The position numbers were made by a program, and so were the translations under genes. The notes under the pieces are model-generated. The model did not search any database. It was not told the DNA's origin and was given only the letters and a program-made list of their open reading frames with translations. From contig PDTB01000021.1 of the NCBI GenBank assembly GCA_002748665.1, positions 1 to 64,000 of the forward strand: a stretch of DNA of 64,000 nt, written 5' to 3'. The stretch is from Dethiosulfovibrio peptidovorans. GTDB lineage: Bacteria; Synergistota; Synergistia; Synergistales; Dethiosulfovibrionaceae. How positions within the stretch are numbered: the first letter of the stretch is position 1; each line of letters opens with the position of its first letter. This document shows positions 2,518 to 17,440 of this stretch, piece after piece.

Positions 2518-3312
2518 TTACTGAGAGTTTCCTGTATACCCCAGATCGAGGGAGAAGCGGTGGGCGACGTCCCGTAAACAACGAACGACGGTATCGATTT
2601 TCTTCTGCTTTCCTGCACTTCGAAACGCCAAGAGAGCTACACTGACAGCCGCGACGGCTGCGCCATTATAGCCCCGTATAGGCACGGCGAAACAGAGAAG
2701 TCCATCGACGAATTCACCTCTGTCCACAGCGTAGCCACGCTCTCTGGTTTCCCTCAAATCAGCCAGGAGGGATTCCATATCGGAAATTGTGTTCTCCGTG
2801 TGTTGCACAAAAGGGTCTTGGGCCAGAAGATCGACGACGGCAGAATCATCCATACAGGCGAGCAAGGCCTTTCCCAGTCCGGTGCAGTAGGCGGGCATCT
2901 TTCTCCCTATGGTCAGGTCAATCTTGAAGGTGGAGACACTGTCGATCTTGTCTATGTAGACCACGTGCTTCCCGTCCATGATGGCCAGGTTAATGGCTTC
3001 CCCTGTCTTTTCCGAGAGTTCTCTCATAAAGGGCTGTGCCTGTTTCCGAAGCCCCAGCCGCTTGACCACGTTGTTCCCGATCTCAAACAGCTTAAAGCTG
3101 TTGGCATAGGTATGGCTTGATCTGTTCTGAGTGACGTATCCCAGGTGTTTCAGCGTGTAGACCAGACGATACGCTGTGCTGCGCTCCAGACGGAGAGCCC
3201 GGGCGATGTCGTTGATCGCCAACTCGCCTCTTCCGTCTAAAAGCTCCAAGATCGCTAAAGCTCGTTCAACAGACTGGACAGTACCGGAAACGTTCTTTCC
3301 CACACCAATCAT
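2518..3312 (-). CDS. IclR-family transcriptional regulator
   Basis: About 264 residues. The N-terminal winged helix-turn-helix contains TVQSVERALAILELL and IARALRLERSTAYRLVYTL. The C-terminal IclR effector domain contains MPAYCTGLGKALLA and the usual VDRGEFVDGLLCFAVPI stretch. Dimeric IclR proteins bind a small organic acid and usually control a nearby catabolic operon. The frame is open up to 3381, but the ATG at 3312 has a good site (GAGAGGACTG) and gives the normal family length, so I chose it. The gene lies downstream of panE-dctPQM on the same strand. It is the best candidate for the factor that reads the two matching operator elements at 7.5 and 13.4 kb. That assignment is inferred. Confidence 0.9.
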   Translation of the reverse strand: MIGVGKNVSGTVQSVERALAILELLDGRGELAINDIARALRLERSTAYRLVYTLKHLGYVTQNRSSHTYANSFKLFEIGNNVVKRLGLRKQAQPFMRELSEKTGEAINLAIMDGKHVVYIDKIDSVSTFKIDLTIGRKMPAYCTGLGKALLACMDDSAVVDLLAQDPFVQHTENTISDMESLLADLRETRERGYAVDRGEFVDGLLCFAVPIRGYNGAAVAAVSVALLAFRSAGKQKKIDTVVRCLRDVAHRFSLDLGYTGNSQ

Positions 3313-3464
3313 CAGTCCTCTCATGGCATCAAAGCCCTGGATTGAGGCATCGACTAGTTTGCCTCTCTTATTCGGATGCATAGGTATAGACGATACTTGG
3401 AGCTCGTGTTGAATTCGACCGATCGATCCGATTCAAGGTCGTTCATAGCAGCGGCAGACGGTTG

Positions 3465-4748
3465 TCAATACAGACCAGCCAGATGGGGAAGAAGAGTAGA
3501 CAGAGCCGGGATATAGGTGAGGATGAGAATATCCAGGATCATGATCAGTATGAAAGGCCAGATGGCCCGTGTAATCTCCTCCAAGGTAACCCCGGAGATA
3601 CTGCACCCTACAAACAGGCAGACACCCAGGGGAGGAGTTACCATACCTACAGCTAGGTTCACCACCATGACGATGCCAAAATGAAGAGGATCCACGCCAA
3701 TCTGTCCTAAGACGGGGAGGAGTACGGGAACAAGGATGATGATGGCTGCGACAGTCTCCATAAAGGTCCCGACGATCAGAAGAAGGACGTTGATCAAGGT
3801 GAAAATAATCACGGGGTTTGATGATACAGACAAAAGACTTTTGGCAACCGCAAGGGGAATTTCCTCAGCCGTTAATATCCAGCTGAAGACCGAGCAGGTT
3901 GATATGATGAACATGACAATGGAGGTCCCGACCACGGATGTGATGAGGATCTCCCGAATGACCACAAACTTCAAGGCTTTGTAGACCCAGGTTCCCACGA
4001 CGAAGCCATAGACGACAGCTATGACGGCTGCCTCGGTAGGGGTGAAGATACCGCCGTAAATACCCCCCAGGATGATAATGGGCATGAGCAGGGCCGGCAT
4101 GGCGTCCTTGAAGGCCTCCCGCCTCTCTTCTCTGGACATTTTCTCGTCGCCTCTATAGCCTTTTCGGCGTGAGATTTTCCAGGCGACGAACATAAGAGAC
4201 AGTCCCACTAAAATGCCGGGGATAATACCACCCATGAAGAGAGCTCCGATAGAGACCCCAGTGAGGGTCCCGTACAGAATCATGGGTATACTGGGGGGGA
4301 TCATCACGCCTAAGGTTCCGGCGCTGGCCTCCACAGCAGCGGCGAAGGGGCTAGCGTACCCCTTTCGGACCATCGCGGGGATGAGAAGCGATCCGATCGC
4401 GGCAACCGTCGGAACAGCGGCTCCAGAGATAGCTCCAAAAAACAGACTGGCAACGATGGCCACAAATGCCAACCCTCCGGAGAATTGACCGACGAAGGCG
4501 TTAGCGAGGTCGACGAGCCTTTTTGAGATCCCCCCGTACTCCATGAGAGATCCTGCAAGAAGAAAAAAGGGCACGGCCATAAGCGGGAAGGAGTCTGTGG
4601 CGGTGATCATCTTCTGGACGACCAGGACGGGCGGCACTGAGCCGGAGACGAGGACGGCCACCAAGGACGATAGACCGATAGCCACGGCGATGGGGACGTT
4701 GATCCCGAAGAGGATAACCAAAGATGAAAAAAGAACCGCCGCCGTCAT
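3465..4748 (-). CDS. dctM: TRAP transporter large permease (DctM family)
   Basis: A 427-residue, very hydrophobic protein with about 12 membrane segments, the usual size for DctM, the ion-coupled transport subunit of tripartite TRAP importers. It shows typical DctM stretches: MAVPFFLLAGSLM, SGAAVPTVAAIGSLLIPAM, the IPPSIPMILYG turn and TPTEAAVIAVVYG. Its ATG overlaps the dctQ stop codon by 4 bp (ATGA), so the two are translationally coupled. It is the last transporter gene of the leftward operon panE-dctP-dctQ-dctM. Substrates of such systems are organic acids. The operon partner suggests a hydroxy or keto acid such as pantoate or ketopantoate, which is inference. Confidence 0.95.
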   Translation of the reverse strand: MTAAVLFSSLVILFGINVPIAVAIGLSSLVAVLVSGSVPPVLVVQKMITATDSFPLMAVPFFLLAGSLMEYGGISKRLVDLANAFVGQFSGGLAFVAIVASLFFGAISGAAVPTVAAIGSLLIPAMVRKGYASPFAAAVEASAGTLGVMIPPSIPMILYGTLTGVSIGALFMGGIIPGILVGLSLMFVAWKISRRKGYRGDEKMSREERREAFKDAMPALLMPIIILGGIYGGIFTPTEAAVIAVVYGFVVGTWVYKALKFVVIREILITSVVGTSIVMFIISTCSVFSWILTAEEIPLAVAKSLLSVSSNPVIIFTLINVLLLIVGTFMETVAAIIILVPVLLPVLGQIGVDPLHFGIVMVVNLAVGMVTPPLGVCLFVGCSISGVTLEEITRAIWPFILIMILDILILTYIPALSTLLPHLAGLY

Positions 4749-5233
4749 AGGGTATCACCGCCTCGATCAAACAGTACACTTAACAGGTCGAAGGTGGTAT
4801 AGATGGTCATCAAGATCGCTCCTCCGAAGAGAGCTGAGTACGGAATGGCCATGGATATTTCCATCGCGGGGGAACTCTGGTAGAAGACCATGCCTAGAAT
4901 CTTAAAGCCGTAGACTGCCAGAAATCCGAAGAATAGCAGGGCCATGAAAAGAGCCACCATGGAGACCATACGCCGAGGGGTTGCCCCGAGCAGCTTGACC
5001 AGCGCCTCGACACCCACGTGTCCGTGCCTCCGAACGGCGATGCTGGCCCCAAGAAACGAGAGCCAGACCAGAATATATCTGGCTGCCTCCTCAGACCAGG
5101 GTAGGGACGACCTGATGACAAATCGAAAGAGAACCTGCAAAAAGACGATAACCACCATAGCGACCAAAAGAGCGCTGGCACACCCCTCAACAAATCGGTT
5201 GAGGGCTCGGACGACAATCTCAAAATACTTCAT
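4745..5233 (-). CDS. dctQ: TRAP transporter small permease (DctQ family)
   Basis: A 162-residue membrane protein with four predicted helices, the size and layout of DctQ. It shows the family segment FVIRSSLPWSEEAARYILVWLSFLGA, quoted in parts as RSSLPWSEEAARY and VWLSFLGA, and then VRRHGHVGVEAL. DctQ pairs with DctM to form the membrane part of a TRAP importer. The ATG follows GGAGGCTCCCA. The 3' end overlaps dctM by 4 bp, and dctP lies 75 bp upstream. Confidence 0.93.
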   Translation of the reverse strand: MKYFEIVVRALNRFVEGCASALLVAMVVIVFLQVLFRFVIRSSLPWSEEAARYILVWLSFLGASIAVRRHGHVGVEALVKLLGATPRRMVSMVALFMALLFFGFLAVYGFKILGMVFYQSSPAMEISMAIPYSALFGGAILMTIYTTFDLLSVLFDRGGDTL

Positions 5234-5308
5234 TGGGAGCCTCCAATAAACGGTAAACGAGGGCCGACGAGGAATCTATCAGTCCCTCGCCGGCCTCATC
5301 GGATGGGG

Positions 5309-6304
5309 TTACTCCGACAGGATCTGGTCTAAGAGCTTCCCGTCATCGCCGAGTTGCTCCCTGAACTGGTCGTAGACTACCTTAGTCTTCTTCAGGAAAG
5401 GCTCCTTATCGGGGTACGTAACGGTCATACCTAACTCCTTCAGTTTAGCCACCTGCTCGTCCTCCATCCTGGTGATCTCTGATCGCTCGAAAACAGCTGA
5501 CTCCTGGGCGGCTTGCAGAAGGACATCCCGATATTCCTCGGGCATCTTGTCCCATACTCGCTTGCTGATCAGGAGCATGGATGGTGAAAACACGTGTCCG
5601 GTTAGAGCAAAATGACCTTGTACCTCGTATAGTTTGGATGTGTAGACGACAGGAACAGGGTTTTCCTGACCATCGACCACGCCCTGTTGAAGGGCGGTGA
5701 AAAGCTCCCCCCATGCCATGGGAGTGGGGTCGGCACCCAAGGCCTTCCATATGGCCATATGGACCTTGTTCTCCATCGTCCGAAGCTTCAGTCCCTCAGC
5801 ATCCTCGGGGGTTTTGACGGCCCGTTTGGAGTTGGTGAGGTGGCGGAAGCCATTCTCGTACCAGGCCAGGCCTTTGATGCCTTTTTTCTCTAAAAGGCCC
5901 ATCACGTACTGACCGATAGGACCGTCCAAGGTCTTGTATGCGTGATTTTTGTCTCGGAAGAGGAAGGGGAAATCGAAAAGCATGAACTTCTTCTCGAAAC
6001 CACTCATCGGCCCTGTGGATGATACGACGAGGTCGACCGTCCCCAGCTGCATCCCCTCGAGTAGGTCCCGTTCGCCTGAACCCAGTTGGTTATTGGGAAA
6101 GATCCGAATTGAGACGGCTCCGTTTGTTTCCTTCTCAACCATTTCCTTGAACTTCTCAGCTCCCAGATGATACGGGTGAGTCATCGGTACGGAATGACCA
6201 AGCTTTAGAGAGAAGCTCTTATCAGCAGCGAGGGCAGAACAACAGAAGATAAGCGTAAGCGACAGAACGGCTAGAATGACAACTTGCAAGAAAGATTTTT
6301 TCAT
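5309..6304 (-). CDS. dctP: TRAP transporter substrate-binding protein (DctP family)
   Basis: A periplasmic binding protein of about 331 residues. The signal peptide (MKKSFLQVVILAVLSLTLIF then CCSALAADK) is followed by LKLGHSVPMTHPYHLGAEKF. The family hallmark Arg is in GLKLRTMENKVH and binds the substrate carboxylate. The region GELFTALQQGVVDGQENP is also diagnostic. The frame is open 12 codons further upstream, but the ATG at 6304 has AGGAGG at the right distance and starts the signal peptide exactly. Position between panE and dctQM makes it the first transporter gene of the operon. The ligand is unknown. A 2-hydroxy or 2-keto acid is the best guess from the neighbouring reductase. Confidence 0.93.
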   Translation of the reverse strand: MKKSFLQVVILAVLSLTLIFCCSALAADKSFSLKLGHSVPMTHPYHLGAEKFKEMVEKETNGAVSIRIFPNNQLGSGERDLLEGMQLGTVDLVVSSTGPMSGFEKKFMLFDFPFLFRDKNHAYKTLDGPIGQYVMGLLEKKGIKGLAWYENGFRHLTNSKRAVKTPEDAEGLKLRTMENKVHMAIWKALGADPTPMAWGELFTALQQGVVDGQENPVPVVYTSKLYEVQGHFALTGHVFSPSMLLISKRVWDKMPEEYRDVLLQAAQESAVFERSEITRMEDEQVAKLKELGMTVTYPDKEPFLKKTKVVYDQFREQLGDDGKLLDQILSE

Positions 6305-6340
6305 AATGTATAACCTCCTCGTTTTAATCGAATGGCACAA

Positions 6341-7267
6341 TCAATTAGAACCATATCTCATCTCTTTGACTTTGATGAGGTTATAGAGAACTCGGTTCAC
6401 CGGCGTGATGACGCCCAGCCCCTCACCCTCTCGAACGATGGCTCCGTTAATGACGTCGATCTCGGTTTTCCTGCTGTTACCCACGTCCTGAAGCATGGAC
6501 GACAGGTTCGCTGAGGTTTTCCTGCACACCTCTTTCACGTGTTCTGCCGGGTCGGACGATATGAAACGCACCCCCTTGGCCTTTCCCACGTCTAAGGCCT
6601 CCGCAACGGCCTTCTCGAGCAGCTCTTCTGTTTCCTTATATTCCAAAAGAGCCCCGTTGGTCAGACCAGTCAAAGCCGTGAGGGCGTTGATGCCTACATT
6701 GACGACCAACTTGTCCCAAAGGACCCCTTGGATGTTAGAGGATAGCTGAGTAGCAAAGCCAGCCTGTTCAAGGCAGGAGGCCAATTCGTCCAGAGAATCT
6801 CGATTGCTTCCATTCAGGGTACCGATAATGGTATCGCCTTGACCGGCGTGTCGAATTCGCCCGGGGCCGAGAAGGGTAGCTCCGTGGGCAGTCGTTCCGG
6901 CAATAATCCGATCCTGACCAACCAATGAGCTTAAAACATCCACGTTCCCCAAGCCGTTTTGAAGTGTCAGGATCTTCGTCTTCTGCCCCATAAGACATCG
7001 GGCGCTTTCCATGGCTTCGGCAGTATACGAAGATTTTACGAAGACGAAAACGATGTCTGCCTCTCCAGCAAGAAGAGGGTCCGTGCAGGCTCTGATCCCG
7101 TCTATAACCCGATTGCCTCCGATACCTTCTATCTTCAGCCCGTTGTCGTTTATGGCTTCGACGTGATCCTTCCAGACATCGAGGAGAACCACATCGTATC
7201 CAGCCTCAGATAGCTTACCTCCGTACAGACATCCCATGGCGCCTGCACCAAGGATGACAAACTTCAT
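6341..7267 (-). CDS. panE: 2-dehydropantoate 2-reductase family protein (PanE/ApbA)
   Basis: About 308 residues, the normal length for PanE. The N-terminal Rossmann fold begins KFVILGAGAMGCLYGGKL (GxGxxG). It is followed by FVKSSYT and LQNGLGN, and then by the C-terminal catalytic domain with the conserved Lys/Asn segment LWDKLVVNVGINALTALTGL and the substrate loop SSMLQDV. PanE interconverts ketopantoate and D-pantoate with NADP(H). The ATG at 7267 has an ideal AGGAGGG site; a TTG sits one codon earlier. It is the first gene of an operon with a TRAP importer, and its promoter carries the same operator as the panB operon. In this setting the enzyme may oxidise pantoate rather than make it. 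A reductase for a related branched 2-keto acid is possible. Confidence 0.88.
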   Translation of the reverse strand: MKFVILGAGAMGCLYGGKLSEAGYDVVLLDVWKDHVEAINDNGLKIEGIGGNRVIDGIRACTDPLLAGEADIVFVFVKSSYTAEAMESARCLMGQKTKILTLQNGLGNVDVLSSLVGQDRIIAGTTAHGATLLGPGRIRHAGQGDTIIGTLNGSNRDSLDELASCLEQAGFATQLSSNIQGVLWDKLVVNVGINALTALTGLTNGALLEYKETEELLEKAVAEALDVGKAKGVRFISSDPAEHVKEVCRKTSANLSSMLQDVGNSRKTEIDVINGAIVREGEGLGVITPVNRVLYNLIKVKEMRYGSN

Positions 7268-7477
7268 CAAAAGCCCTCCTCTCGCCTGTTGCAGACGAAC
7301 AGATCACAACTATCAAGTTTTTTACCCCTATCCTCTGTGCTTCCCAAGTGCTCTATTGTGGTTTTTCTCATTAGGCACCCCTTTTTTGCTCCGTCTCCAG
7401 CACTACGAAGAACGTATCAAGAGAATTCGAGCCTCCAGGCCTGCTTTCACATAGGAACTCCTCGCAGTTTAGCAGAG

Positions 7478-7544
7478 AATCTCACAATATGAACAAGGAG
7501 TCTCATGTAAAGTAATTATCACTATACACCCTTTAGAGAATCAA
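7478..7544 (-). promoter_or_regulatory. Promoter and operator of the panE-dctPQM operon (element A)
   Basis: Read on the minus strand: a -35-like TTGATT (7539-7544), an 18-bp spacer, a -10-like GATAAT (7515-7520), and then an operator-like block at 7478-7506. The block starts ATGAGACTCCTTGTTC and ends ATATTGTGAGATT, so it contains two direct ATGAGA/GTGAGA half-sites 21 bp apart. Almost the same arrangement occurs at 13364-13429 in front of the amidohydrolase-panB operon. The operator lies over the expected start of transcription, a position suited to repression. The leader to panE is about 210 bp. Confidence 0.7.
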
Positions 7545-7650
7545 CGCAATAGGACAAGGGGCCTTACTTTTTGCTGATCGGTTAATTTAAAAGCCTATCG
7601 TATTTCGGCGTCTCGTCGCCTCTGGAGGAATATGATATAAAAGATTTAAA

Positions 7651-7674
7651 GGGCACCTCTAAAAATGCCTACGC
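7651..7674 (+). repeat. Possible solitary end of a MITE/IS5-type element
   Basis: GGGCACCTCTAAAAA followed by a CCTAC motif matches the left terminal repeat of the MITE at 36656. It also resembles the end of the half copy at 40142 and of the IS5 relic at 44721. No second end is seen nearby. It lies in the leader of the EamA-type gene and is short enough to be chance. Confidence 0.3.
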
Positions 7675-7695
7675 AGGATATTCAGGAGGAAGATC

Positions 7696-8619
7696 ATGAG
7701 CGGAGAGCAGAATCGATTTGTCAGAAGAGGTGTTGTTGTGATGCTTCTGGCTGGTTTGGCCTGGGGAACAACTGGAACTATTCAGAGTCAGGCTCCGTCA
7801 GGAACAGTTCCCCTGGCCCTGGGGTGGGCCCGATTGGCCTTCGGTGGGGGATTTCTTCTCTTGACCCTCATCGTTCGTGGTAAGGCTCGCCTTGAATGCT
7901 GCCTTATTCCGTGGGCTATCCTTCCAGGTCTTGCCATGGCTGGATTTCACGTATTTTTCTTTCTCACCCTTGCTCGATGTGGTGTGGCGATGGGAACCAT
8001 GCTGGGTATAGGATCCTCTTTGATTGCAGCCGGACTTTTTGGATGGATTATCGGGGAACGACCGTCAGGCCTTTGGTGGGGTGCCGTTTGTCTGGCTCTT
8101 GCAGGGCTCTTCTTTTTAGTCTCTCTAGGAGAGGGAATGAGTCTCGATTTTATGGGCCTTGCACTGGGTTTCGCCAGTGGAGGATTCTACGCTATGATAG
8201 GTGTTGAGTTAAAGGCTCTTGCCCGTCGAGGCCTTTCTGCGCTTGAGCGACCTGCTGTGGCCCTCATTTCTGGGGCGCTTTGTCTGCTTCCCGCAACGTT
8301 CTTCGTCGATCTCTCGTGGCTCGTAACCCCTAGAGGATTAGCGGTTGCCTTGGGCTTGGGTGGACTCTCAGCAGCTCTCCCTTACGGCCTGTTTTCCGTG
8401 GCTTTGGCCTACATCACTGTGGGACAGGCCTATACCCTGGGCCTTATGGAGCCGCTAACGGCAACCTGCTTAGGTATTTTTCTTCTGGGAGAGCGCCCTC
8501 CTCTCCCGGCTTACCTGGGTATGGTTTTGATACTTCTCTCCCTGGCGCTCTCTGGCTGGGATGCTGGGCGACGGGATGCGAAAGACAATTCCTCCATGAG
8601 ACAAGTCCGACAAGCATGA
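7696..8619 (+). CDS. EamA/DMT-superfamily membrane exporter
   Basis: A 307-residue protein with ten hydrophobic segments built as two EamA repeats. The first begins with AGLAWGTTGTIQSQ; the second carries GFASGGFYAMIGVEL and ends GQAYTLGLMEPLTATCLGIFLLGERP, both typical of drug/metabolite exporters. The ATG follows CAGGAGGAAGATC. It lies between the two leftward pan operons and diverges from panE, so the element at 7478-7544 could also affect it. Family members export amino acids and metabolites. An end product of the neighbouring pathway is a possible cargo, but nothing in the sequence fixes it. Confidence 0.88.
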   Translation: MSGEQNRFVRRGVVVMLLAGLAWGTTGTIQSQAPSGTVPLALGWARLAFGGGFLLLTLIVRGKARLECCLIPWAILPGLAMAGFHVFFFLTLARCGVAMGTMLGIGSSLIAAGLFGWIIGERPSGLWWGAVCLALAGLFFLVSLGEGMSLDFMGLALGFASGGFYAMIGVELKALARRGLSALERPAVALISGALCLLPATFFVDLSWLVTPRGLAVALGLGGLSAALPYGLFSVALAYITVGQAYTLGLMEPLTATCLGIFLLGERPPLPAYLGMVLILLSLALSGWDAGRRDAKDNSSMRQVRQA

Positions 8620-8642
8620 GGCGCCATGCTAAGAGATTTTCT

Positions 8643-8682
8643 AACAAAAAGACCTCTGCTATATGCCAGAGATCTTTTTGTT
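8643..8682. terminator. Bidirectional terminator between the EamA gene and panF
   Basis: A 16-bp stem with one mismatch: AACAAAAAGACCTCTG pairs with CAGAGATCTTTTTGTT around the loop CTATATGC. It is A-rich on one side and T-rich on the other, so it can end transcripts from both the rightward EamA gene and the leftward panF gene that converge here. Confidence 0.88.
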
Positions 8683-8736
8683 ACAGCAACTTAAAACAGG
8701 TAAGGCTGGAAGGCTTTGCCTCCTAAATTCCCTGCA

Positions 8737-10233
8737 TTACAATCCCCAGAAGAGGCGGATGACCTTCTCTGAGGGTTTTTTAGTGCATTTAGCAACGGTG
8801 ATGAAGGCCAATAGGGAAAGCAAGAGTGATGGCACGATAGGATGGAGTCCGAGAGGCCTCGAGATAAAATTGTTGAAGTACAGGTAGGTTCCGATACCGG
8901 TCACCATACTGGCTATCGCTCCCGGCGCGTTAGCCCCCTTCCAGTAGAGCCCGAGAATGGTGGGCCAGAGGAAGGTCGAAAGCTGTCCTGCCGTAGCGAA
9001 GAGGTTCAACCATACCATGAGCTCAGGTGGGTTAAAAGCCAAAGCTACGATGATCAACCCGACGATGCCACAGGTGCCCATGGTAATGATGCGAAGCGTT
9101 TTAAACTTACCCTTCAGATCTGGATTAATATAGTTCACCAACAAGTCGTTGATGATGGCAGCGACAACCACCAAAAGTTGCGAATCCACTGTGGACATCA
9201 CTGCTGCCAAGGGACCAGCGAGGATAAGCCCGGCAATCACAGGATGGAATAGAGTGCTTATAAGCGTTGGGACGACCAGGTCTCCGGAGGCAATACCGGA
9301 TACCTGAGTCATTCCGAAGGCACCGACGAGATGCATGCCCATCAACAGCAAAAGGGATGTTATGGTTCCGTAGACGATCCCCGAGTGGAGACTCTTCGAG
9401 TCCTTATAGCTCATTGCCCGCTGTGCGATTGCAGGTAGCCCTATGACAGCAAAACCGACGAGAACCCAGAAGCTTGAGACCCATGGGACTGTCATGAACC
9501 CTTCTTTCGCCCCATAAGGGGAGATCATGCCAGGGTTAATGGCTTTCATTTCCTGCACGATGTTGGGGATGCCTCCCCCTTTCACCACGATAGCGATGAA
9601 GAGGCTTATTGTGGATATAGTCATCACAACTCCCTGGAGGGTATCGTTGAAAACGACGCCACGAAAACCACCGATGGCCGTATGGACCACCATTGTCACC
9701 GCAAAAAAGATGAGTGCCGTTTTGTATTCGAGCCCTGTAGAGCCTTGGAGCAGTCGAGATGCGCCTATAAGTTGGGCGGCCATGGCAGCGGTGAGGAAGA
9801 AGATGATGGACATAGATACGATGATCAGGACTGCGTTACTTTCGTAGCGGGCACGCAGGAAATCACTGATGGAGTTAGCCCCTGTCTTTCGCGAGATAAT
9901 AGCGAACTTTTTGCCTAGGGCCATCAAGGTGTAGTACCCGGTTGGGATTTGAGACATGGCCAGGAAAACCCAGGCGAGTCCGTGGGTATAGGCTGCTCCT
10001 GGGCCCCCTGTGAAGCTCCCAGCGCTCAGGTAAGTGGCGACGAGGGTCATAGCAAGAACGAAGCCTCCAGTGTTGCGTCCCCCGGTCATATACTCTTCCA
10101 TGTACGCTGAGCCGCTCGCTCCCTTGCACAGGCTGGCCCTGTTCACGAGCTTGAGAGCGTAGACGCCGATGAGGTAGATGAGCCCGAAATAGCAAATGAT
10201 TGGCAGAAGTGTGGCCCACTGTATCGTATTCAT
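8737..10233 (-). CDS. panF: Sodium/pantothenate symporter (PanF, SSS family)
   Basis: A 498-residue SSS-family symporter with about 13 helices. Segments strongly resemble PanF rather than generic SSS proteins: FVLAMTLVATYLSAGSF, TGGPGAAYTHGLAWVFLAMS, FWVLVGFAVIGLPAIAQRAM, SYKDSKSLHSGIVYG, AGPLAAVMSTVDSQLL and HPIVPSLLLSLLAF. PanF imports pantothenate with sodium. The start codon overlaps the stop of the YhdT-like gene by 4 bp, matching the known yhdT-panF pairing. It is the last gene of the amidohydrolase-panB-yhdT-panF operon. Having an uptake system next to panB suggests that the operon deals with external pantothenate. Confidence 0.92.
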   Translation of the reverse strand: MNTIQWATLLPIICYFGLIYLIGVYALKLVNRASLCKGASGSAYMEEYMTGGRNTGGFVLAMTLVATYLSAGSFTGGPGAAYTHGLAWVFLAMSQIPTGYYTLMALGKKFAIISRKTGANSISDFLRARYESNAVLIIVSMSIIFFLTAAMAAQLIGASRLLQGSTGLEYKTALIFFAVTMVVHTAIGGFRGVVFNDTLQGVVMTISTISLFIAIVVKGGGIPNIVQEMKAINPGMISPYGAKEGFMTVPWVSSFWVLVGFAVIGLPAIAQRAMSYKDSKSLHSGIVYGTITSLLLLMGMHLVGAFGMTQVSGIASGDLVVPTLISTLFHPVIAGLILAGPLAAVMSTVDSQLLVVVAAIINDLLVNYINPDLKGKFKTLRIITMGTCGIVGLIIVALAFNPPELMVWLNLFATAGQLSTFLWPTILGLYWKGANAPGAIASMVTGIGTYLYFNNFISRPLGLHPIVPSLLLSLLAFITVAKCTKKPSEKVIRLFWGL

Positions 10234-10580
10234 ACCCGTTCCCCTCCGTCTCGTATGAAAGCTTCTGCCTCTCCCTCTGTCATGGGATCGAGGGGCATCT
10301 CCCGCATTTTCTTTTTGACGATATATATCGTCATCACGATAGCAAATACAGAGTTAGCGATGCAGCTGATGAAGAACCATGCTGGAAAACCCAGGATGTA
10401 GGAGTAGTTCTCCACAGGCCCGCCCCCGAGGCCATATCCCCCCACGATCCATATCACGAGGTTAACTATGCCGAGGATGACCCCATACAGGGCCTCTCTT
10501 TCACATATTTTATAGCGGGGATCTTCGATAAACCCGTACTCGTTTTTCTTAAGAACTTGGGGTTGTCTCTCTTCTGTCAT
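10230..10580 (-). CDS. yhdT: YhdT family protein (DUF997), small partner of PanF
   Basis: A 116-residue protein with two membrane helices (about residues 30-50 and 64-88). The segment LGFPAWFFISCIANSVFAI and the following basic stretch ending MREMPLDP match YhdT, a small membrane protein encoded directly before panF in enterobacteria. The N-terminus here is about 30 residues longer than in E. coli. Its function is unknown; a role in PanF assembly or activity is usually assumed from gene order. It overlaps panF by 4 bp and follows panB by 23 bp. Confidence 0.85.
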   Translation of the reverse strand: MTEERQPQVLKKNEYGFIEDPRYKICEREALYGVILGIVNLVIWIVGGYGLGGGPVENYSYILGFPAWFFISCIANSVFAIVMTIYIVKKKMREMPLDPMTEGEAEAFIRDGGERV

Positions 10581-10603
10581 GATCTCCCGATCCTCCCTTC
10601 AGA

Positions 10604-11434
10604 CTAATAAAGCTTGTCGAGCTCTACCTCTTTGTTGAAGGAATATTCGTCAGTCGGAAATTCTCCACTTAATGCCTCTTTGTGGAACTGGTTCAGCCCA
10701 TTTACCATGACCTCACGAACATTGGCGAAGAGTTTCACAAATTTCGGTTTGAAGTCGCCGTACATGCCCAAAAGATCTTGGGTTACTAGTACCTGGCAGT
10801 CTACGAAGGGACCGGCTCCGATGCCAAGAATGGGGACGCTCACGGCTTCGCTAATGGCTTTGCCCACTGTTTTTGGAACGCACTCCAAAACTATGGAAAA
10901 GGCTCCTGCCTGCTCAAGTTCTTGTGCATCTTTGATAAGCTGGCGAGCGCTCTCTGGCGTTCCTCCTTGGACCTTGAAACCGCCGAGCTGCGTGGCATTC
11001 TGGGGTGTGAGGCCAATGTGCCCCATAACCGGGATCCCGCCATTCACGATGGCCTCTACCAAGTCAGCGTATTTGGCTCCCCCCTCCAGCTTAACGCAGT
11101 CGCATCCAGTTTCTTTGATCATTCTCGTAGCATTGTGTATCCCCTGCTGGATGCTCTCGTTATAGGCCCCAAAGGGCATATCTCCGACGATGAACGTATC
11201 CGGTGCGCCTTTTACTACAGGACGGATATGGTGGATCATGTCTTCCATGGTCACAGATACGGTATCTTTGTATCCGAGCATGATCATACCGAGGGAGTCC
11301 CCTACGAGGATGACTTCTACCTCACTATCGTTAACTATTGATGCCGTGGTGTAGTCGTAGGCTGTTACGTAGGCGAACTTTCTGCCCTCCTCTTTGTACC
11401 TCTTAAAATCAAGGATCGACATTTTCTTCTTCAT
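10604..11434 (-). CDS. panB: 3-methyl-2-oxobutanoate hydroxymethyltransferase (PanB)
   Basis: A 276-residue TIM-barrel enzyme of normal PanB length. Recognised segments are FAYVTAYDYTTASIV, VILVGDSLGMIMLGY (metal-binding Asp), the VKLEGG Lys/Glu motif, MGHIGLTPQ, LECVPKTV and ILGIGAGPFVDCQVLV. PanB joins 2-ketoisovalerate and methylene-THF to ketopantoate, and the reaction is reversible. The ATG follows AAGGAAGGAG at a 10-nt spacing. No panC or panD is nearby, which is unusual for a biosynthetic panB locus. The neighbours are an amidohydrolase and pantothenate uptake genes, so the enzyme may work in the cleavage direction here. Confidence 0.95.
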   Translation of the reverse strand: MKKKMSILDFKRYKEEGRKFAYVTAYDYTTASIVNDSEVEVILVGDSLGMIMLGYKDTVSVTMEDMIHHIRPVVKGAPDTFIVGDMPFGAYNESIQQGIHNATRMIKETGCDCVKLEGGAKYADLVEAIVNGGIPVMGHIGLTPQNATQLGGFKVQGGTPESARQLIKDAQELEQAGAFSIVLECVPKTVGKAISEAVSVPILGIGAGPFVDCQVLVTQDLLGMYGDFKPKFVKLFANVREVMVNGLNQFHKEALSGEFPTDEYSFNKEVELDKLY

Positions 11435-11605
11435 CTTTTTCTGGCTCCTTCCTTTTATCCTATGTCACGTTCTCTTAAAGAAACTTCAGATCCTCTTCCT
11501 GTTTATCGAAGTATCCTCGAGCCTTGCTGTTTCCTGCATTTCGTTGTCGCATAAAGAAGATGTTTTATGTCTTGGGAGTTCATCTGAATCCGTTATATCA
11601 GCCCC

Positions 11606-13267
11606 CTATCGATGTCGGAGCTTTCGATCATACTCCACGACACCATCGATGACGGTACAGTCCACCCGAAGTGTGTGAATGTCCATGGAGTTCACAGACA
11701 AAATGTCCCCCGAGAGAACGATCATATCCGCTAACTTTCCTACCTCAAGACTTCCTTTGATGTTCTCCTCAAAGGAAGAGTAAGCTCCGTTGTATGTGGC
11801 TATCCGAATAGCCTCCGTGACCGATATCCTCTGAGTTGCATCGCACTGGACGTTTTGGCTTCGATCATAACGGTTAACCGCCCCATCTATAGTGTGAATG
11901 CCCTTGGGCCCCGATGGCCCATCGCTTGACAGAGAACACATGATTCCTGCATCAAGCATGCTGCGCAAGGCAATCAGGCAGGAATTACGATCTCCATAGA
12001 ACTTCATGTAGTTGGCACCGATCATTTGGATCATTCCTGCATTAACGGAGGGACAGATATTCATGGAGGCCATGCAGTCAATCAAATCCTGGTCTGCCAG
12101 GGTACAGTGCTCGATGCGGTGGCGCATATTTTTGAATTTTTCGGGGTTTTCCTGAAAGCAGTCTTTGTATCCTTCCACCATAAACTCCACTGCAAGGTCG
12201 CCGATAGCATGGGCAGTACACTGGCACTCTGCGTCAACGATTTGCTTGATATACTTTCGAACCTCATCTTGCTCCCAACCTCGCTCTCGTACCAACGAAG
12301 GGTCATGAGAATAGGGGGCGCGAGTCGCACAGGAAGGGCCTCCCGATCCTCCATCGATCATAAACTTGCAGGGGCCAACCCGGAAACGCTCGTCTCCAAG
12401 GCCTGACATGAAACCCAGAGCCAGCCAATGTCCGTTCTGCTCCAGGGAATACTCTTTGCCGAAAATGCTGTGGAGAGCCATATTGACCCGAATCTTGAAG
12501 ATGTTGTCTCGACAAAGTTTGTGCATAATATGATACGACGTGGGGCCGCATTCTCCCATGTCACCAATAGACGTAATGCCTGCCTCTAAGGCTTGCTGAT
12601 GGGATTTCATGGCTGCTCGAACCTGCTGTTCCTCCGTATACTCTACCATTCCCCACAGCTTAAAGTGGGTGTGACCGCGCACCATGCCGGTGAGCCGCGC
12701 GTTTATCACTTCAACTTCGTTCTCTGGGTACTTTGCAGCATCCTGTGGGGTATACACATTGAGGTAAGTCAGGGCCTGCGTATTGTACATACATATGTGT
12801 CCGCCGCCGTGCATGCAATGTACAGGGTTGTCCGGGGCAATGGCATCCAGCTCATCTATAGTGGGATGGCGCTGTTCGTCGGAGAAGAGCTCCGGTTCGT
12901 ATCCCATCATGGAGATCCACTCGCCTTGCTTTTTTCGTGTGACGGCTTTCCGAAGATTGTTAAGCATTTCTTCCAGGGAGTCACAGTTTTTCTTGGTAGT
13001 GTCGATAATCCCGGAGTCGAGATCTGAGTCCAGAAGGCCATTCAGAATGGGGTGGAAGTGGGTATCGTTGATGCCTGGCATAAGGGTGCGTCCTTGAATA
13101 TCCCAAACTGTTGTCTCCTTCGATAGATATGGGGTTATGCCTTGGGAACTCCCTACGTAAGCGATACGGTTTCCCTTAATACCGACTGCTTCGACAATCT
13201 CATCCCTTGCGTTTACAGTGATAACCCTACCGTTTACGAAAGCCATGTCAAGCTTATTGCTCAGCAT
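11606..13267 (-). CDS. YtcJ-type metal-dependent amidohydrolase (amidohydrolase_3 family)
   Basis: About 553 residues. Metal-site motifs are all present: the first HxH in DTHFHP, the bridging Lys in CKFMIDGG, His in HAIGDLA, His in RIEHCTL, and the catalytic Asp in SSDGPSG. The C-terminal GSLEVGKLADMIVLSGD is typical of the family's small beta-domain. These enzymes hydrolyse amide bonds, often of N-acyl amino acids. The frame is open to a GTG at 13282, but the ATG at 13267 follows AAGGAGGACCCC and is preferred. It is the first gene of the operon with panB, yhdT and panF and lies behind operator element B. Pantothenate is itself an N-acyl beta-alanine, so pantothenate hydrolysis is a natural but untested proposal. 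Confidence 0.9.
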   Translation of the reverse strand: MLSNKLDMAFVNGRVITVNARDEIVEAVGIKGNRIAYVGSSQGITPYLSKETTVWDIQGRTLMPGINDTHFHPILNGLLDSDLDSGIIDTTKKNCDSLEEMLNNLRKAVTRKKQGEWISMMGYEPELFSDEQRHPTIDELDAIAPDNPVHCMHGGGHICMYNTQALTYLNVYTPQDAAKYPENEVEVINARLTGMVRGHTHFKLWGMVEYTEEQQVRAAMKSHQQALEAGITSIGDMGECGPTSYHIMHKLCRDNIFKIRVNMALHSIFGKEYSLEQNGHWLALGFMSGLGDERFRVGPCKFMIDGGSGGPSCATRAPYSHDPSLVRERGWEQDEVRKYIKQIVDAECQCTAHAIGDLAVEFMVEGYKDCFQENPEKFKNMRHRIEHCTLADQDLIDCMASMNICPSVNAGMIQMIGANYMKFYGDRNSCLIALRSMLDAGIMCSLSSDGPSGPKGIHTIDGAVNRYDRSQNVQCDATQRISVTEAIRIATYNGAYSSFEENIKGSLEVGKLADMIVLSGDILSVNSMDIHTLRVDCTVIDGVVEYDRKLRHR

Positions 13268-13363
13268 GGGGTCCTCCTTCACAAGAGTGCCTCCTTTCTT
13301 TCCCTTTTATACTTTTGAAATGTCCCAACGCAGCCTTGATACGAACTATATTATGGCTAGCGT

Positions 13364-13429
13364 AATCTCATAATACGAACAAGGGTCTCATTTAAATCCA
13401 TTAATAGCATACTCCCTTTAGTCAGCCAA
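13364..13429 (-). promoter_or_regulatory. Promoter and operator of the amidohydrolase-panB-yhdT-panF operon (element B)
   Basis: Read on the minus strand: a -35-like TTGGCT (13424-13429), a 17-bp spacer containing CTAAAGGG, a -10-like TATTAA (13401-13406), and then the block at 13364-13391, which begins ATGAGACCCTTGTTC and ends GTATTATGAGATT. The two ATGAGA half-sites are 20 bp apart, about two helical turns. It matches element A at 7478-7544 nearly base for base in the operator and in part of the spacer. Confidence 0.7.
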
Positions 13430-13532
13430 TGCAACATTATAGAGACACCTCTTGGCGTTGAACTGTCACCCCATAACTGAATCAGAGAAAAAGTCACCCC
13501 TCCGACAGGAGTTTCCTGGATACTACATGGGT

Positions 13533-14108
13533 ATGAGACAGGAGCGAGTGACAGTGTCATACAGGGAAATCAAGCGGATCAAGGTCATGGAGCTGCTGGT
13601 CAACGGGGGGATGAGCAATCATGAGGCAGCGGAGTCCCTGAGCCTCTGTCGGAGGCGGATTATCAGCCTCAGGAAGAAGTACAAAGCTCACGGTGAAATG
13701 GCCCTCATTCACGGCAACAGGGGCAAACATCCCAGGCAGAGGAAGGGCTGTACTGCTCTTCACGCTTATATCGACGACGCTACGGGTATCGTCGTCGGTG
13801 CGTACTTGACTGAGAATGAGAGTACCGCAGGCTATGTGTCCGCATTGGCTCTGGGGAAGGAACGACGTTTGAGCACGTTTGGACAGGGGGTGAAGGGCCT
13901 CGGTACAGGCAAGATCTTCGCCCTCTCTCCTGAGGCAAAGGGACGTGTTGAATGTTTGTGGAATGTTCTGCAGGACAGACTGCCTGGAAAGCTAAGGCTC
14001 CCTGATGTTTCTGATATTGAGGGATTTCCTGTTTGCACGCAGAGAGATGCGCAAGTTAGTCCATCAATTTATGACGGGAGCCGATGCGTACAAATGCTGA
14101 TCCCCTGA
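13533..14108 (+). pseudogene. Decayed ISNCY/IS1202-type transposase fragment
   Basis: The N-terminal part shows the family's helix-turn-helix (KVMELLVNGGMSNHEAAESL, then LSLCRRRIISLRKKY and HGNRGKHPR). It then jumps to short pieces of the catalytic domain (YIDDATGIVVGAYLTENES, then SPEAKGRVECLWNVLQDRLP). The middle of the DDE domain is missing and the C-terminus is out of register, so the gene carries several deletions. Together with the next fragment it marks an old insertion site between the pan region and the histidase-like operon. Confidence 0.8.
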
Positions 14109-14329
14109 ATGCTCTATACCAAAATGTTAAGGAGCGCTCATCATGCCCCGAGTATCCTTCTGTGAGGAATTGCCTGCCGAGTCAACGAACGAAGGCTCAT
14201 GATTACTCCAAAACAGTTTTATTATCTTCTGATCGCTAAGAGGTTCTTGGGAACCTCTAGGAATCCCATATATAACATTTTGCCTGAATAACTCGGCTTT
14301 TGTCGTGATTTGGGTACAACAAATATCGC

Positions 14330-14735
14330 CCCTGACTTCATCATCAGGAGCGAGTATCGAGTAATGAATGGTATAGGCCAAGTTCCTCAGTTCTATGACG
14401 GTTGAGGTTCTGGCTTTCCCAATAGTTCGAATGATCAGGGTACCAGCCTTCATGACCTGAGCTCCGAATATGTGCTCCACCCGGCTTCGGACTTTGGACC
14501 TTGTTCTGTTGCCCTGTCTTTCCCACAATGTGATGGGTTCGCCTCTGTATCCTTTGCGTTGGGTCTTCGGTCTGTATCCTCGTTCCTCAAGCCAGGAGAG
14601 GCTCTCTCGACTTCGACAGGCTGAATCGGCATAGATGTCCTTACTGGTTTTGCTGGTATCTATGAGGGTCTCGAAATAACAACACCATGAAGGAGATGAT
14701 GGTGTCAAACTACGGCCAATTGAGAGATCAGGCAC
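14330..14735 (-). pseudogene. IS5-family transposase remnant, C-terminal part
   Basis: The reading contains TSKDIYADSACRSRESLSWL, ERGYRPKTQRKGYRG, KVRSRVEHIFGAQVMKAGTL and IIRTIGKARTSTVIELRNLAY. This is the C-terminal third of an IS5-group transposase, including the catalytic Glu of RVEHIFG. The N-terminal two thirds and any terminal repeats are absent, and the frame runs on into unrelated DNA towards 14127. A stretch near 14331-14385 is closely similar to 44899-44950, so both relics come from related elements. Confidence 0.8.
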
Positions 14736-14879: not shown

Positions 14880-15872
14880 TCAAGCAATGCGCCGAAGAGT
14901 TAAGGCTTGTCTTGGGCAAACCTCTAGACAGAGTCCACATCCCCAGCATTGAGAAGAGTCAAAAACCATGAAATTTTTTCTCTTCATTGTATTTATATTA
15001 AAGACATTCATGTGGCATCGTCGCATACAGGCCCCGCAACGAATACAGACCTCCTCGTTCCATTCGACTCGATATGGTGTCCCGGGCCAGATACCCTTAC
15101 TCATGAGTTTCGTTGAACTTCGCATTGGGTAGCAGCAGCAGCTGTCACAGTTACAGATGGCTTCCTCGCCGACAGTATGCATAAGCCCAGTTTTATGGGC
15201 AGATACCATGACTTCCTGTGCTTCGATGATAGAAATTTTTCGACCCCATCCTCGATGGATTGGGGAGTTGATTCGGTCGGGAGGGGAATATTGGATACAT
15301 GTTTCTACTGGAAAATCACAGTTCATAGCAATAGAGCGACAGTTACAGGGTAACACATAGAGATTTTTTTCTGGCACTGTCTGTAAGAAGCGGAGTGCTT
15401 CATCGTGGGGTAGAACCATGTCATTGCCTAAAGAAGACGCTGGGATTGTCTTAATTCCATAATTTTTTCTAGCTCGATTCTCAAATTTAGCGACAATTCC
15501 ATGAATACATCGTTTGCCATATTCATCGAGATACCATTGATCTAAGTTTTTTCGGATTGTTACTGGAAGCTTAGCCCATCGTTCATGTTCAAACTGAGCG
15601 AACAGGTCCAAGCGAGAGTAGAGATTTCCGGCGATATATCGGTTTTCTCCGTTTAATGAAACGATCCCTCGGTGATAGAATTCGTCAATGGAAAGGCGGG
15701 CCTCATGTTCGGATATCTCCATAATGGAGGCCAGTTCTGAAAGGGTCAGTGGTTTTCTTCCAGATAGATCCAGAATAAGGCGTCGTTCTAGTGGGGTTGT
15801 CATAGATTTCAGAGCCTGTTCTATTCCTTCTGGGGCACCGAAAGCTTTGGCAAATTGGCCGATATTTTCCAT
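14880..15872 (-). CDS. Winged-helix and 4Fe-4S cluster protein
   Basis: A 330-residue cytoplasmic protein of unknown function. Residues about 25-85 resemble a winged helix (LTLSELASIMEISEHEARLS). The C-terminal half is rich in cysteine: CNCRSIAMNCDF with a further Cys near residue 190, CNCDSCCCYP near 242, and two ferredoxin-type motifs, CIRCGACMRRC and CWGCGLCLEVCP, near 275 and 310. Together these suggest two [4Fe-4S] clusters plus an extra metal or cluster site. It starts 2 bp after the stop of the histidase-like gene and is certainly cotranscribed with it. It could be an electron carrier, a redox sensor or an activase-like partner for that enzyme. I do not recognise a named family. Confidence 0.8.
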   Translation of the reverse strand: MENIGQFAKAFGAPEGIEQALKSMTTPLERRLILDLSGRKPLTLSELASIMEISEHEARLSIDEFYHRGIVSLNGENRYIAGNLYSRLDLFAQFEHERWAKLPVTIRKNLDQWYLDEYGKRCIHGIVAKFENRARKNYGIKTIPASSLGNDMVLPHDEALRFLQTVPEKNLYVLPCNCRSIAMNCDFPVETCIQYSPPDRINSPIHRGWGRKISIIEAQEVMVSAHKTGLMHTVGEEAICNCDSCCCYPMRSSTKLMSKGIWPGTPYRVEWNEEVCIRCGACMRRCHMNVFNINTMKRKNFMVFDSSQCWGCGLCLEVCPRQALTLRRIA

Positions 15873-15874
15873 GG

Positions 15875-17440
15875 TTAGAACTCCAGTTGACCAGTAACCG
15901 TTTCGGCTGCTTTAAGAATCTTACCCTCTCGTACCATTGTGGCGATAGCTTCGATGAGGGGTTGCATAAATTGATCTTGATGAATCATAGGTACTTCCCG
16001 TCGAACTCGGTCATAAACGGATTGTGTCGCAGGAGAGGGAGAGAGTTCCTCGTAGAAGTCTTGAGCCTGACAGGCGTTTAGAATTTCAATGGCGAGAATA
16101 TACTGAAATAGCGGAGTAGAACGATATAATTTCATAGCAGCATTCCCTCCCATGCTGGTGTAATCTTCTTGATTAGCGCAGGTGAATCCATTATCTATTG
16201 TAGCAGGGTGACTCATTAGTTTCATCTCTCCCAAAAGTCCGGCTGCAGCATATTGGGGGATCATGAGGCCGTTGTTAAGCCCTGGGTTGCTGTTCAAAAA
16301 GGCAGGCAGTTCGCTGACGTGGTGGTTAACCATCCGCTCAAGACGTCGTTCTGAAATTTTCGCTAGGCCTGTTATAGCGATAGCTGCGCAGTCTGCAGCG
16401 ATCCCGACATAGGAGCCATCTGCATTACAGGCCATAATTGCTTCGGCTCCCTCGTTGCTTTCAAAAACAAGAGGGTTATCGACAGATGAGTTCAATTCAG
16501 TGATCAAGGTTGTGAGTCCGTCGATTAAAATCTTTTTTGTTGCTCCGTGAAGTTGTGGGATGCAACGCAGCGAAAGTGCGTCTTGGACTCTGTAGTCTTT
16601 GTACCTTTCTGCGATTTTGCTGTTTTTGAGCAAGGTTCTGATATTCTTTGCTGTGTGACCTTGATGGACATGAGGACGGACATCGTGGATTCGAGGATCC
16701 ATAGCTTTTAGAGTGCCTTTTAAGACTTCCAGGGACATTGCTGCTGCAATATCCGCTGTTTGGGCCGCTATGAGAGAATCATAGAGGCCGAGACATGTAA
16801 GGGCGGTTACAGATGTAGTCCCCGAAACAATGGTTAGCCCTTCCTTGCTCCTAAGTGTTATCGGTTTAAGTCCAGCGGCCTCTAAAGCACGATCGGCAGG
16901 CATGACTTCCCCTTGGTATGTTACATAGGCCTCACCGATCATGGCAGCCCCAATGTGCCCTTCGTGACAGATATAGCCCACACTACCGTGGCTTGGAACG
17001 ATGGGAGTTACTCCAGCATTGAGCATATCAGCCAGCATCTTGAGCGTCGGTAGGCTCATTCCTGCATGACCTGTACCAAAATGTTGAAGCATGACGAACA
17101 TCATTGCTCGGACACACTCTTCCTTAAGGGGTTCCCCTACCGAGCAGGCGTGGGAGAGAACGTGATTCCTTTGGACAATTTTGCGATCTTCCGGAGATAT
17201 GTAACGATTCCAATTTTCTCCAAGTCCGGTTGTGATACCGTAGATCGGTTTTTCTTCTTCTGAAAATCTATCGATATGGCGTCTGAACCGTTCGACCCTC
17301 TCGATATAAGGCTCGCTAAATGACACCTTTGCCTGATAGCGGGCGACAGCGACGACATCCTCTATGTTGATTGGAGGTCCTAGAAGAACGTTTTCGATTT
17401 TCGGAGCCTTTCTCCAATGGAGAGTGCTGAAATCATGCAT
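15875..17440 (-). CDS. Histidine/phenylalanine ammonia-lyase homologue lacking the MIO triad
   Basis: A 521-residue protein with the fold-defining segments of the HAL/PAL family: KPIYGITTGLGE near residue 65 (catalytic Tyr67), NHVLSHACSVGEPL near 92, QDALSLRCIPQLHG near 286, LNSSVDNPLVF near 316, FLNSNPGLNNGLMIPQY and NQEDYTSMGGNAA. In normal members an Ala-Ser-Gly in GSVGASGDLAPL cyclises to the MIO electrophile. Here the same place reads GSVGYICHEGHIG (residues 152-164), so the triad is Tyr156-Ile157-Cys158. The Asn of the INGTQ motif is also replaced (VSGTT, Ser206). The codons were read directly and the frame is intact. The ATG follows AAGGAGCGCAAGCT. It lies in an operon with an SSS symporter, so it probably acts on the imported compound. 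Confidence 0.88.
   Translation of the reverse strand: MHDFSTLHWRKAPKIENVLLGPPINIEDVVAVARYQAKVSFSEPYIERVERFRRHIDRFSEEEKPIYGITTGLGENWNRYISPEDRKIVQRNHVLSHACSVGEPLKEECVRAMMFVMLQHFGTGHAGMSLPTLKMLADMLNAGVTPIVPSHGSVGYICHEGHIGAAMIGEAYVTYQGEVMPADRALEAAGLKPITLRSKEGLTIVSGTTSVTALTCLGLYDSLIAAQTADIAAAMSLEVLKGTLKAMDPRIHDVRPHVHQGHTAKNIRTLLKNSKIAERYKDYRVQDALSLRCIPQLHGATKKILIDGLTTLITELNSSVDNPLVFESNEGAEAIMACNADGSYVGIAADCAAIAITGLAKISERRLERMVNHHVSELPAFLNSNPGLNNGLMIPQYAAAGLLGEMKLMSHPATIDNGFTCANQEDYTSMGGNAAMKLYRSTPLFQYILAIEILNACQAQDFYEELSPSPATQSVYDRVRREVPMIHQDQFMQPLIEAIATMVREGKILKAAETVTGQLEF

Follow-up and report, generated by a model that had tools for sequence, protein, structure and literature searches.

Within the first 64,000 nucleotides of contig PDTB01000021.1 of the Dethiosulfovibrio peptidovorans assembly GCA_002748665.1 (the window), genes for PanB and PanE, two enzymes of pantothenate (vitamin B5) biosynthesis, stand together with importers and an amidohydrolase, which raises the question of whether the encoded proteins make the vitamin or break it down. 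The genes form two minus-strand operons, AmiH-PanB-YhdT-PanF (operon 1, AmiH being a YtcJ-type amidohydrolase) and PanE-DctP-DctQ-DctM-IclR (operon 2, with DctP, DctQ and DctM making up a tripartite ATP-independent periplasmic (TRAP) transporter). All frames are open and full-length, and every gene listed in the initial annotation of this DNA, down to the terminal IclR regulator, is present. That annotation proposed that PanE and PanB run in reverse, and comparison across genomes supports the catabolic direction: genes for 2-ketoisovalerate:ferredoxin oxidoreductase (VOR) or formate-tetrahydrofolate ligase (Fhs) lie beside PanB in other AmiH carriers, PanC is missing from 22 and PanD from all of the 25 genomes that carry AmiH, and PanB and PanE fall on branches apart from the panC-linked enzymes compared. 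We put the probability that the locus is an IclR-controlled regulon in which pantothenate and pantoate are broken down with PanE and PanB running in reverse at roughly 0.72.

In the proposed route, pantothenate would be imported by PanF with YhdT, and pantoate probably by the TRAP system. AmiH, apparently cytosolic, would hydrolyse pantothenate to (R)-pantoate and beta-alanine; PanE would oxidise pantoate to ketopantoate with NAD+, a direction and cofactor suggested by sequence and context; and PanB, whose reaction is reversible, would convert ketopantoate and tetrahydrofolate (THF) to 2-ketoisovalerate and methylene-THF. Enzymes of the VOR family turn ketoisovalerate into isobutyryl-CoA, and those of the formate-THF ligase family yield formate and ATP. 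The D. peptidovorans genome encodes VorB on contig C17 and Fhs on contig C6, both unlinked to the window locus, and these enzymes could finish the route, the former with isobutyryl-CoA and reduced ferredoxin as products and the latter with release of formate and formation of ATP.

If PanE and PanB run in reverse, consumers of ketoisovalerate and methylene-THF are expected near PanB, and the system should be independent of PanC and PanD. We searched for AmiH orthologues in a phylum sample of 149 genomes and in a separate scan of named species genomes. The sample yielded 8 carriers besides D. peptidovorans itself (68–84% identity, the next match being at 33%), and the scan yielded 20 loci in 19 genomes (56–81%), comprising Synergistaceae, Pyramidobacter, Oscillibacter and other Clostridia, Tissierellia, Chakrabartyella piscis and Candidatus Adiutrix. 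Three scan loci (L083, L085 and L088) repeat sample genomes and were not counted twice, and two (L099 and L102) come from one genome, leaving 25 distinct carriers with 26 loci (56–84% identity). PanB was found in all 25 carriers and PanD in none of them; PanC matches in two (G104 and G158) were weak and under the cut-off. In the phylum sample, 81 of the 149 genomes hold PanB and 45 hold PanC above the cut-off; among those with PanB, PanC was missing from 8 of 9 AmiH carriers vs. 31 of 72 other genomes (p = 0.011).

Ketoisovalerate and methylene-THF, which reversed PanB would yield, are exactly the compounds that VOR and formate-THF ligase, respectively, handle. In an Eubacteriales bin (L100), seven genes on one strand encode VorB (481 bits to NF005507, cut-off 399), the beta and gamma subunits, formate-THF ligase (929 bits, cut-off 652), PanB (in two pieces), PanE and AmiH. 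In Candidatus Adiutrix (L168), an acetyl-CoA hydrolase/transferase-family gene (512 bits to butyryl-CoA:acetate CoA-transferase, under the cut-off of 675) is followed by VorB, VorA, VorC and PanB. The order VorB-VorA-VorC-PanB recurs in L170, L166 reads PanB-Fhs-FolD, and in L122 a PanB-PanE-TRAP cluster continues with Fhs and FolD-like and FchA-like genes; FolD and FchA in L122 and VorA and VorC in L168 were found by tblastn only. In the named set of 19 genomes, 5 have PanB and Fhs no more than about 5 kb apart (0.28 expected, p = 3 × 10−6), and 3 have VorB that close to PanB (0.26 expected, p = 0.002); these p values are rough because related genomes were treated as independent, fragments were counted as copies and the distance was chosen post hoc. 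Fhs matches occur in 30 of the 31 genome entries searched (28 distinct genomes), some as fragments only, with none in G164, and VorB matches occur in all 31.

The enzymes themselves also set this system apart. In a PanB tree of 90 rows (quick IQ-TREE; the long-branched L133 and PanBs in pieces or at contig ends, including L100 and the D. peptidovorans copy on C31, were left out, and panC-adjacent PanBs were taken where their DNA was available), a single change separates the 28 rows whose genes neighbour AmiH, PanE-TRAP, Fhs or VOR from the 17 panC-adjacent rows, E. coli included. The separating branch has an SH-aLRT value of 94, and 11 further rows fall on the module side; L134, with the order Fhs-FolD-PanB, has a PanB from the other half of the tree. 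The window PanB is 90% identical to that of L045 and sits within a 20-row set with a support of 99. It matches E. coli PanB at D45, S46, D84, K112, E114, H136 and E181, which we take to be the catalytic or metal positions, and the window PanE matches E. coli PanE at N98, K176, N180, N184, N194, S244 and E256, presumably the catalytic ones. At the end of the second strand, Leu30-Arg31 of E. coli PanE is replaced by Asp-Val in the window protein, so that Arg31, which we take to be the NADP-type residue, is missing. The equivalent site reads Gln-Arg in the panC-linked PanE proteins of L112, L162 and three L132 copies, and Asp-Val or Asp-Ile in all 20 module-type rows. Under the common rule for Rossmann folds, this difference points to NAD rather than NADP use by the module PanE, as would fit oxidation; the missing NADP-type residue suggests another cofactor, with family membership kept. 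A plain remnant of a panBCDE cluster was rejected as an explanation, as the PanB branch, the PanE signature and the losses of PanC and PanD speak otherwise.

A second PanB type, represented by L005:9741-10612 (the D. peptidovorans C31 copy) and by its kin in L104, L106, L107, L109, L116, L118, L119, L120, L123, L125–L129, L141 and L142, is shared at 74–94% identity by numerous genomes across the phylum; its gene surroundings vary, and many of its hosts have no PanC. We assign it no role in the route, as no neighbour family besides PanB recurs in more than 5 of its 26 loci (antisense frames over PanB excluded). In L107, L119 and L120 it lies near a histidine ammonia-lyase-like gene 41–44% identical to that at 15875-17440 of the window, and in L119 and L120 an Amidohydro_3 paralogue (about 29% identity) is encoded about 1 kb away.

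We further compared the surroundings of AmiH (flanks of up to 10 kb, less at contig ends, many of them short) with those of distant AmiH paralogues (23 control loci, about 24–33% identity, a part of the paralogue matches). PanF lies near AmiH in 11 of 26 loci vs. 0 of 23 controls, PanB or PanE in 17 of 26 vs. 3 of 23, and at least one of these genes in 21 of 26 vs. 3 of 23 (p = 1.9 × 10−6). The controls L119 and L120 had been picked for holding PanB, a bias that runs counter to the favoured reading, and with these control frequencies we rejected AmiH as a chance neighbour. The gene set recurs in other bacteria, in forms that agree with the catabolic reading. The five loci with none of the three genes nearby (L086, L089, L091, L099 and L102) belong to four genomes, in three of which PanB lies 1.1–1.5 kb from formate-THF ligase, and in the fourth of which it ends a VorB-VorA-VorC-PanB run. 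Gene orders vary: AmiH-M20-PanB-YhdT-PanF-IclR-PanE in L045, AmiH-M20-PanB-YhdT-PanF in L176 and L177, PanE-PanB-AmiH-M20-YhdT-PanF in L087, and PanE-PanB-DctP-DctQ-DctM-unnamed membrane protein-AmiH in L048 and L049, an order also found in L051 with an IS110 element inserted after PanE. Some neighbour names were read by eye; a GltS-like protein gave no Pfam match. Other transporters replace PanF in several carriers; L094:3667-5028 and L097:9614-10972 (the latter by tblastn) are genes of a branched-chain amino acid transporter family next to AmiH, perhaps in keeping with a connection to ketoisovalerate or valine.

AmiH-free operons of the order PanB-PanE-DctP-DctQ-DctM occur in L103, L105, L121, L122, L137 and L140, with DctP 60–68% and DctM 66–75% identical to the window proteins, and IclR stands ahead of the operon in L121 and L137. 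The closest solved relatives of the window DctP are 4pdd, 4pdh and 4p9k/4pak, of which 4pak, as we understand it, holds (R)-pantoate. DctP residues R166, R187 and N227 are spaced like the carboxylate residues that PMC11668362 lists for 4P47, a match of spacing only. The AmiH-free operons, together with the mention of pantoate/D-erythronate among TRAP ligands in the accessible portion of a review (PMC5812351), strengthen the prediction that the TRAP importer brings in pantoate. In a congener (G039), a DUF969-DUF979 pair, possibly a further carboxylate transporter, lies directly ahead of a module-type PanB-PanE pair (L113:4557-8688), where others have TRAP genes.

In AmiH, H75, H77, H162, K306, H358, H392 and D454 are invariant across 26 aligned rows, 5 of which are distant paralogues. 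Residues H75, H77, K306, H358, H392 and D454 make up a complete conserved metal centre, with roles assigned by analogy with the part of PMC13081902 available to us. By eye, the N-terminus has no signal-like stretch, and the only full-length solved relatives are the uncharacterised 3icj and 3igh. Amidohydro_3 enzymes cleave taurine-conjugated bile salts, according to the excerpted text of the same 2026 preprint (PMC13081902). Because taurine is the sulfonate analogue of beta-alanine, pantothenate would be a reasonable substrate for AmiH, and we lean towards AmiH itself being the pantothenase.

Regulation appears to tie the two operons together. The 17-base TTGTTCRTATTRTGAGA occurs without mismatches ahead of both (7480-7496 and 13366-13382, minus strand); allowing up to 2 mismatches there is no third site in the window, 0.02 sites are expected, and 0 of 100 window shuffles held two, so the shared promoter/operator noted in the initial annotation is real. 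Ahead of operon 2 the motif overlaps the promoter-like TTTACA-16-TATTGT (7511-7484), drawn from a scan that gave 14 sites overall vs. 10.9 in shuffles, and ahead of operon 1 it overlaps a similar hexamer pair read by eye. A scan of 23 other loci at up to 5 mismatches gave no convincing site for the operator in its window form. A palindrome, TTTCGnnnnnCGAAA, lies ahead of PanE or PanB in 4 of the 5 relatives' loci scanned; read on the opposite strand, it has the core TTCGTATT in common with the sites of the window. At L051:1061 and L111:1911 its other side borders directly on a divergent IclR gene, and at L048:2190 and L049:17057 an insertion sequence (IS) element separates it from IclR. Given the common operator and the IclR-linked palindromes of relatives, IclR control of both operons is likely; IclR genes lie near AmiH in 7 of 26 loci.

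A number of observations weigh against catabolism, beginning with the D. peptidovorans genome (48 contigs totalling 2.06 Mb, with a listed completeness of 100%). The initial annotation was correct that panC and panD lie outside the window, yet the same contig holds an intact panC 34 kb farther along, at C21:98103-98933. The window copies are the genome's only intact panB and only strong panE: the second PanB (C31:48770-49530) is in two pieces with an internal stop, and other PanE candidates are ApbA-family matches of at most 32.8 bits. The arrangement that the annotation had named as contrary to its proposal, sole panB and panE genes together with panC, is therefore present in part. The PanC and PanD set for de novo synthesis is incomplete, as panD has no match anywhere in the assembly and no remnant behind panC (best E 0.92 over C21:64001-124000). 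Two further AmiH carriers, G162 and G164, hold PanC above the cut-off, as do G024 and G118 among the six genomes with AmiH-free PanB-PanE-TRAP operons, the other four having none. G039, which holds panC and panD, also carries the module-type pair of L113, whose PanE is among the 20 Asp-Val/Ile rows; such a pair can therefore coexist with synthesis and may serve it. TRAP genes are not enriched near AmiH (8 of 26 vs. 5 of 23 paralogue loci, p = 0.35), so that TRAP linkage by itself says little, and ligands in TRAP protein crystals were mostly co-purified, a warning given in the part of PMC11668362 consulted. An M20 hydrolase near AmiH in 5 of 26 loci could be the true amidase. Linkage to VOR and Fhs alone gives no direction, both enzymes being reversible; the absence of PanC and PanD carries most of the inference on direction, and it comes mostly from drafts or bins, so that single absences are weak, the complete genome of Chakrabartyella piscis being the cleanest case.

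Each of the sample's five genus relatives holds both panC and panD, in L112 in the order panC-panD-panB-panE, and none has AmiH at E 1e-30; D. peptidovorans has likely lost panD together with the panB and panE linked to panC. Beta-alanine from outside or from AmiH could feed synthesis in this genome, and mixed use with PanC is the chief rival explanation there. Taken as an account of the whole system, PanB and PanE would run forward to feed PanC, AmiH would supply beta-alanine in place of the lost panD, PanF and the TRAP system would scavenge, and hydrolysis would be recycling. The intact panC beside sole copies of panB and panE without panD, and the gene content of G039, agree with such synthesis or salvage, which we nonetheless consider unlikely: the 22 carriers without PanC would have no use for forward-made pantoate, the window-type PanB and PanE are unlike the panC-linked enzymes, and IclR control combined with importers and an amidase would be an odd design for synthesis.

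Two other explanations keep a catabolic role and change a substrate or an enzyme. The PanE family includes other 2-hydroxyacid dehydrogenases, and AmiH, PanE and PanB might act on another N-acyl compound or 2-hydroxy acid, in which case PanB would split a related hydroxymethyl 2-oxo acid; in favour, the window PanE has a D-W-x-x-H stretch in common with 2ew2 and 8wl3, PanF is replaced in several carriers, and the second PanB type is widespread in the phylum. Every catalytic position checked in PanB and PanE, however, equals that of E. coli, PanF matches the pantothenate symporter at equivalog level and lies near AmiH in 11 of 26 loci, and the NCBIfam name of the linked VorB specifies the ketoisovalerate type, all of which makes a different compound improbable. 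Alternatively, the route may be right with pantothenate split by the M20 hydrolase or another enzyme, AmiH acting on a pantothenate-related conjugate. ArgE/DapE-type deacylases hydrolyse N-acyl amino acids, and M20 genes do adjoin AmiH (e.g., L087 and L176), but 21 of 26 loci, the window included, have no M20 nearby (several flanks being short) and the AmiH metal site is complete; this alternative retains a minor chance. The preferred reading, pantothenate and pantoate breakdown through reversed PanE and PanB, extends to a broader proposal on which we would offer about even odds: a vitamin B5 fermentation in Synergistota, Bacillota and one Thermodesulfobacteriota genome, in which AmiH would be the missing pantothenase, VOR and formate-THF ligase would conserve energy, and the vitamin would be eaten by bacteria that cannot make it.

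Compared with pantothenate biosynthesis (PanB, PanE, PanC and PanD), the window proteins are true PanB and PanE family members with matching catalytic residues; the system differs in its linked importers, amidohydrolase and IclR, in the PanB branch, in the apparently NAD-type PanE, and in that AmiH carriers lack PanD (25 of 25) and mostly PanC (22 of 25). The Pseudomonas fluorescens pantothenase (EC 3.5.1.22) shares the proposed first step, pantothenate to pantoate and beta-alanine; later Pseudomonas steps, unlike the PanE/PanB route, run via aldopantoate and dimethylmalate. Two papers offer precedents for parts of the proposed route: pantothenate splitting has been described, the pantothenase protein being unknown as of 2023 (PMC10393543), and PanB reversal was considered as a one-carbon donor in E. 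coli, where panB deletion had no effect (PMC7073904). The metal-dependent bile salt hydrolases, compared here by their description in the available part of PMC13081902 only, are likewise PF07969 proteins that hydrolyse an acyl amide of a small amino acid, as AmiH is proposed to do; they carry an additional C-terminal domain and some of them are secreted, whereas AmiH (558 aa) has no such domain. DctP may be akin to the pantoate/D-erythronate TRAP binding proteins, to judge by its solved relatives, and differs in sharing an operon with PanE. In the open-licence literature searched we found no description of this gene set and no paper on pantothenate catabolism or its degradation together with ketopantoate. 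If the proposal is true, a gene would be assigned to an activity whose protein was still unknown in 2023, according to the part of PMC10393543 consulted; vitamin-consuming bacteria would enter models of B-vitamin exchange; panB and panE alone would be no marker of vitamin B5 synthesis (39 of the 81 PanB genomes in the phylum sample have no PanC above the cut-off); and each step of the route gives a plain biochemical prediction.

The features of the locus are listed in the table, in which PanF and PanB were judged by equivalog cut-offs and PanE by a subfamily cut-off.

Table. Genes and regulatory sites of the two operons and the region between them (window positions)
Feature	Position	Strand	Evidence
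IclR-family regulator, last gene of operon 2	2518-3381	-	PF01614 and PF09339, both above cut-off
DctM, TRAP large membrane subunit	3465-4748	-	TIGR00786, above cut-off
DctQ, TRAP small membrane subunit	4745-5233	-	PF04290
DctP, TRAP solute-binding protein (proposed ligand pantoate)	5309-6340	-	PF03480
PanE, 2-dehydropantoate 2-reductase family	6341-7270	-	TIGR00745, 299.8 bits (cut-off 141.35)
Promoter/operator of operon 2	7480-7505	-	Common motif and TTTACA-16-TATTGT at 7511-7484
EamA transporter, between the operons	7696-8619	+	PF00892
PanF, sodium/pantothenate symporter	8737-10233	-	TIGR02119 equivalog, 542.8 bits (cut-off 328.05)
YhdT-like DUF997, PanF partner gene	10230-10580	-	PF06196, 89.3 bits
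PanB, ketopantoate hydroxymethyltransferase	10604-11434	-	TIGR00222, 307.1 bits (cut-off 207.55)
AmiH, Amidohydro_3 (YtcJ-type) amidohydrolase, 558 aa	11606-13282	-	PF07969, 212.7 bits
Promoter/operator of operon 1	13366-13390	-	Common motif and hexamers read by eye

The EamA gene between the operons, which the initial annotation did not mention, encodes a protein that shares 39–40% identity with the EamA proteins whose genes lie near panC in L112, L173 and L174 of the same genus; we are unsure whether it belongs to the system, and it is perhaps an exporter tied to the pathway. Farther out, 14880-17440 holds a histidine ammonia-lyase-like gene (15875-17440; 506.7 bits to HutH, under the cut-off of 539.15) and then a 4Fe-4S protein gene on one strand. 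Beside operon 1, positions 13452-14735 are likely transposase remnants, with a DDE_Tnp_1 match above the cut-off at 14127-14735 and weak helix-turn-helix matches at 13452-14108. The module is flanked or split by IS elements in L049 and L051 too, and together with the transposase remnants these elements suggest that it is mobile.

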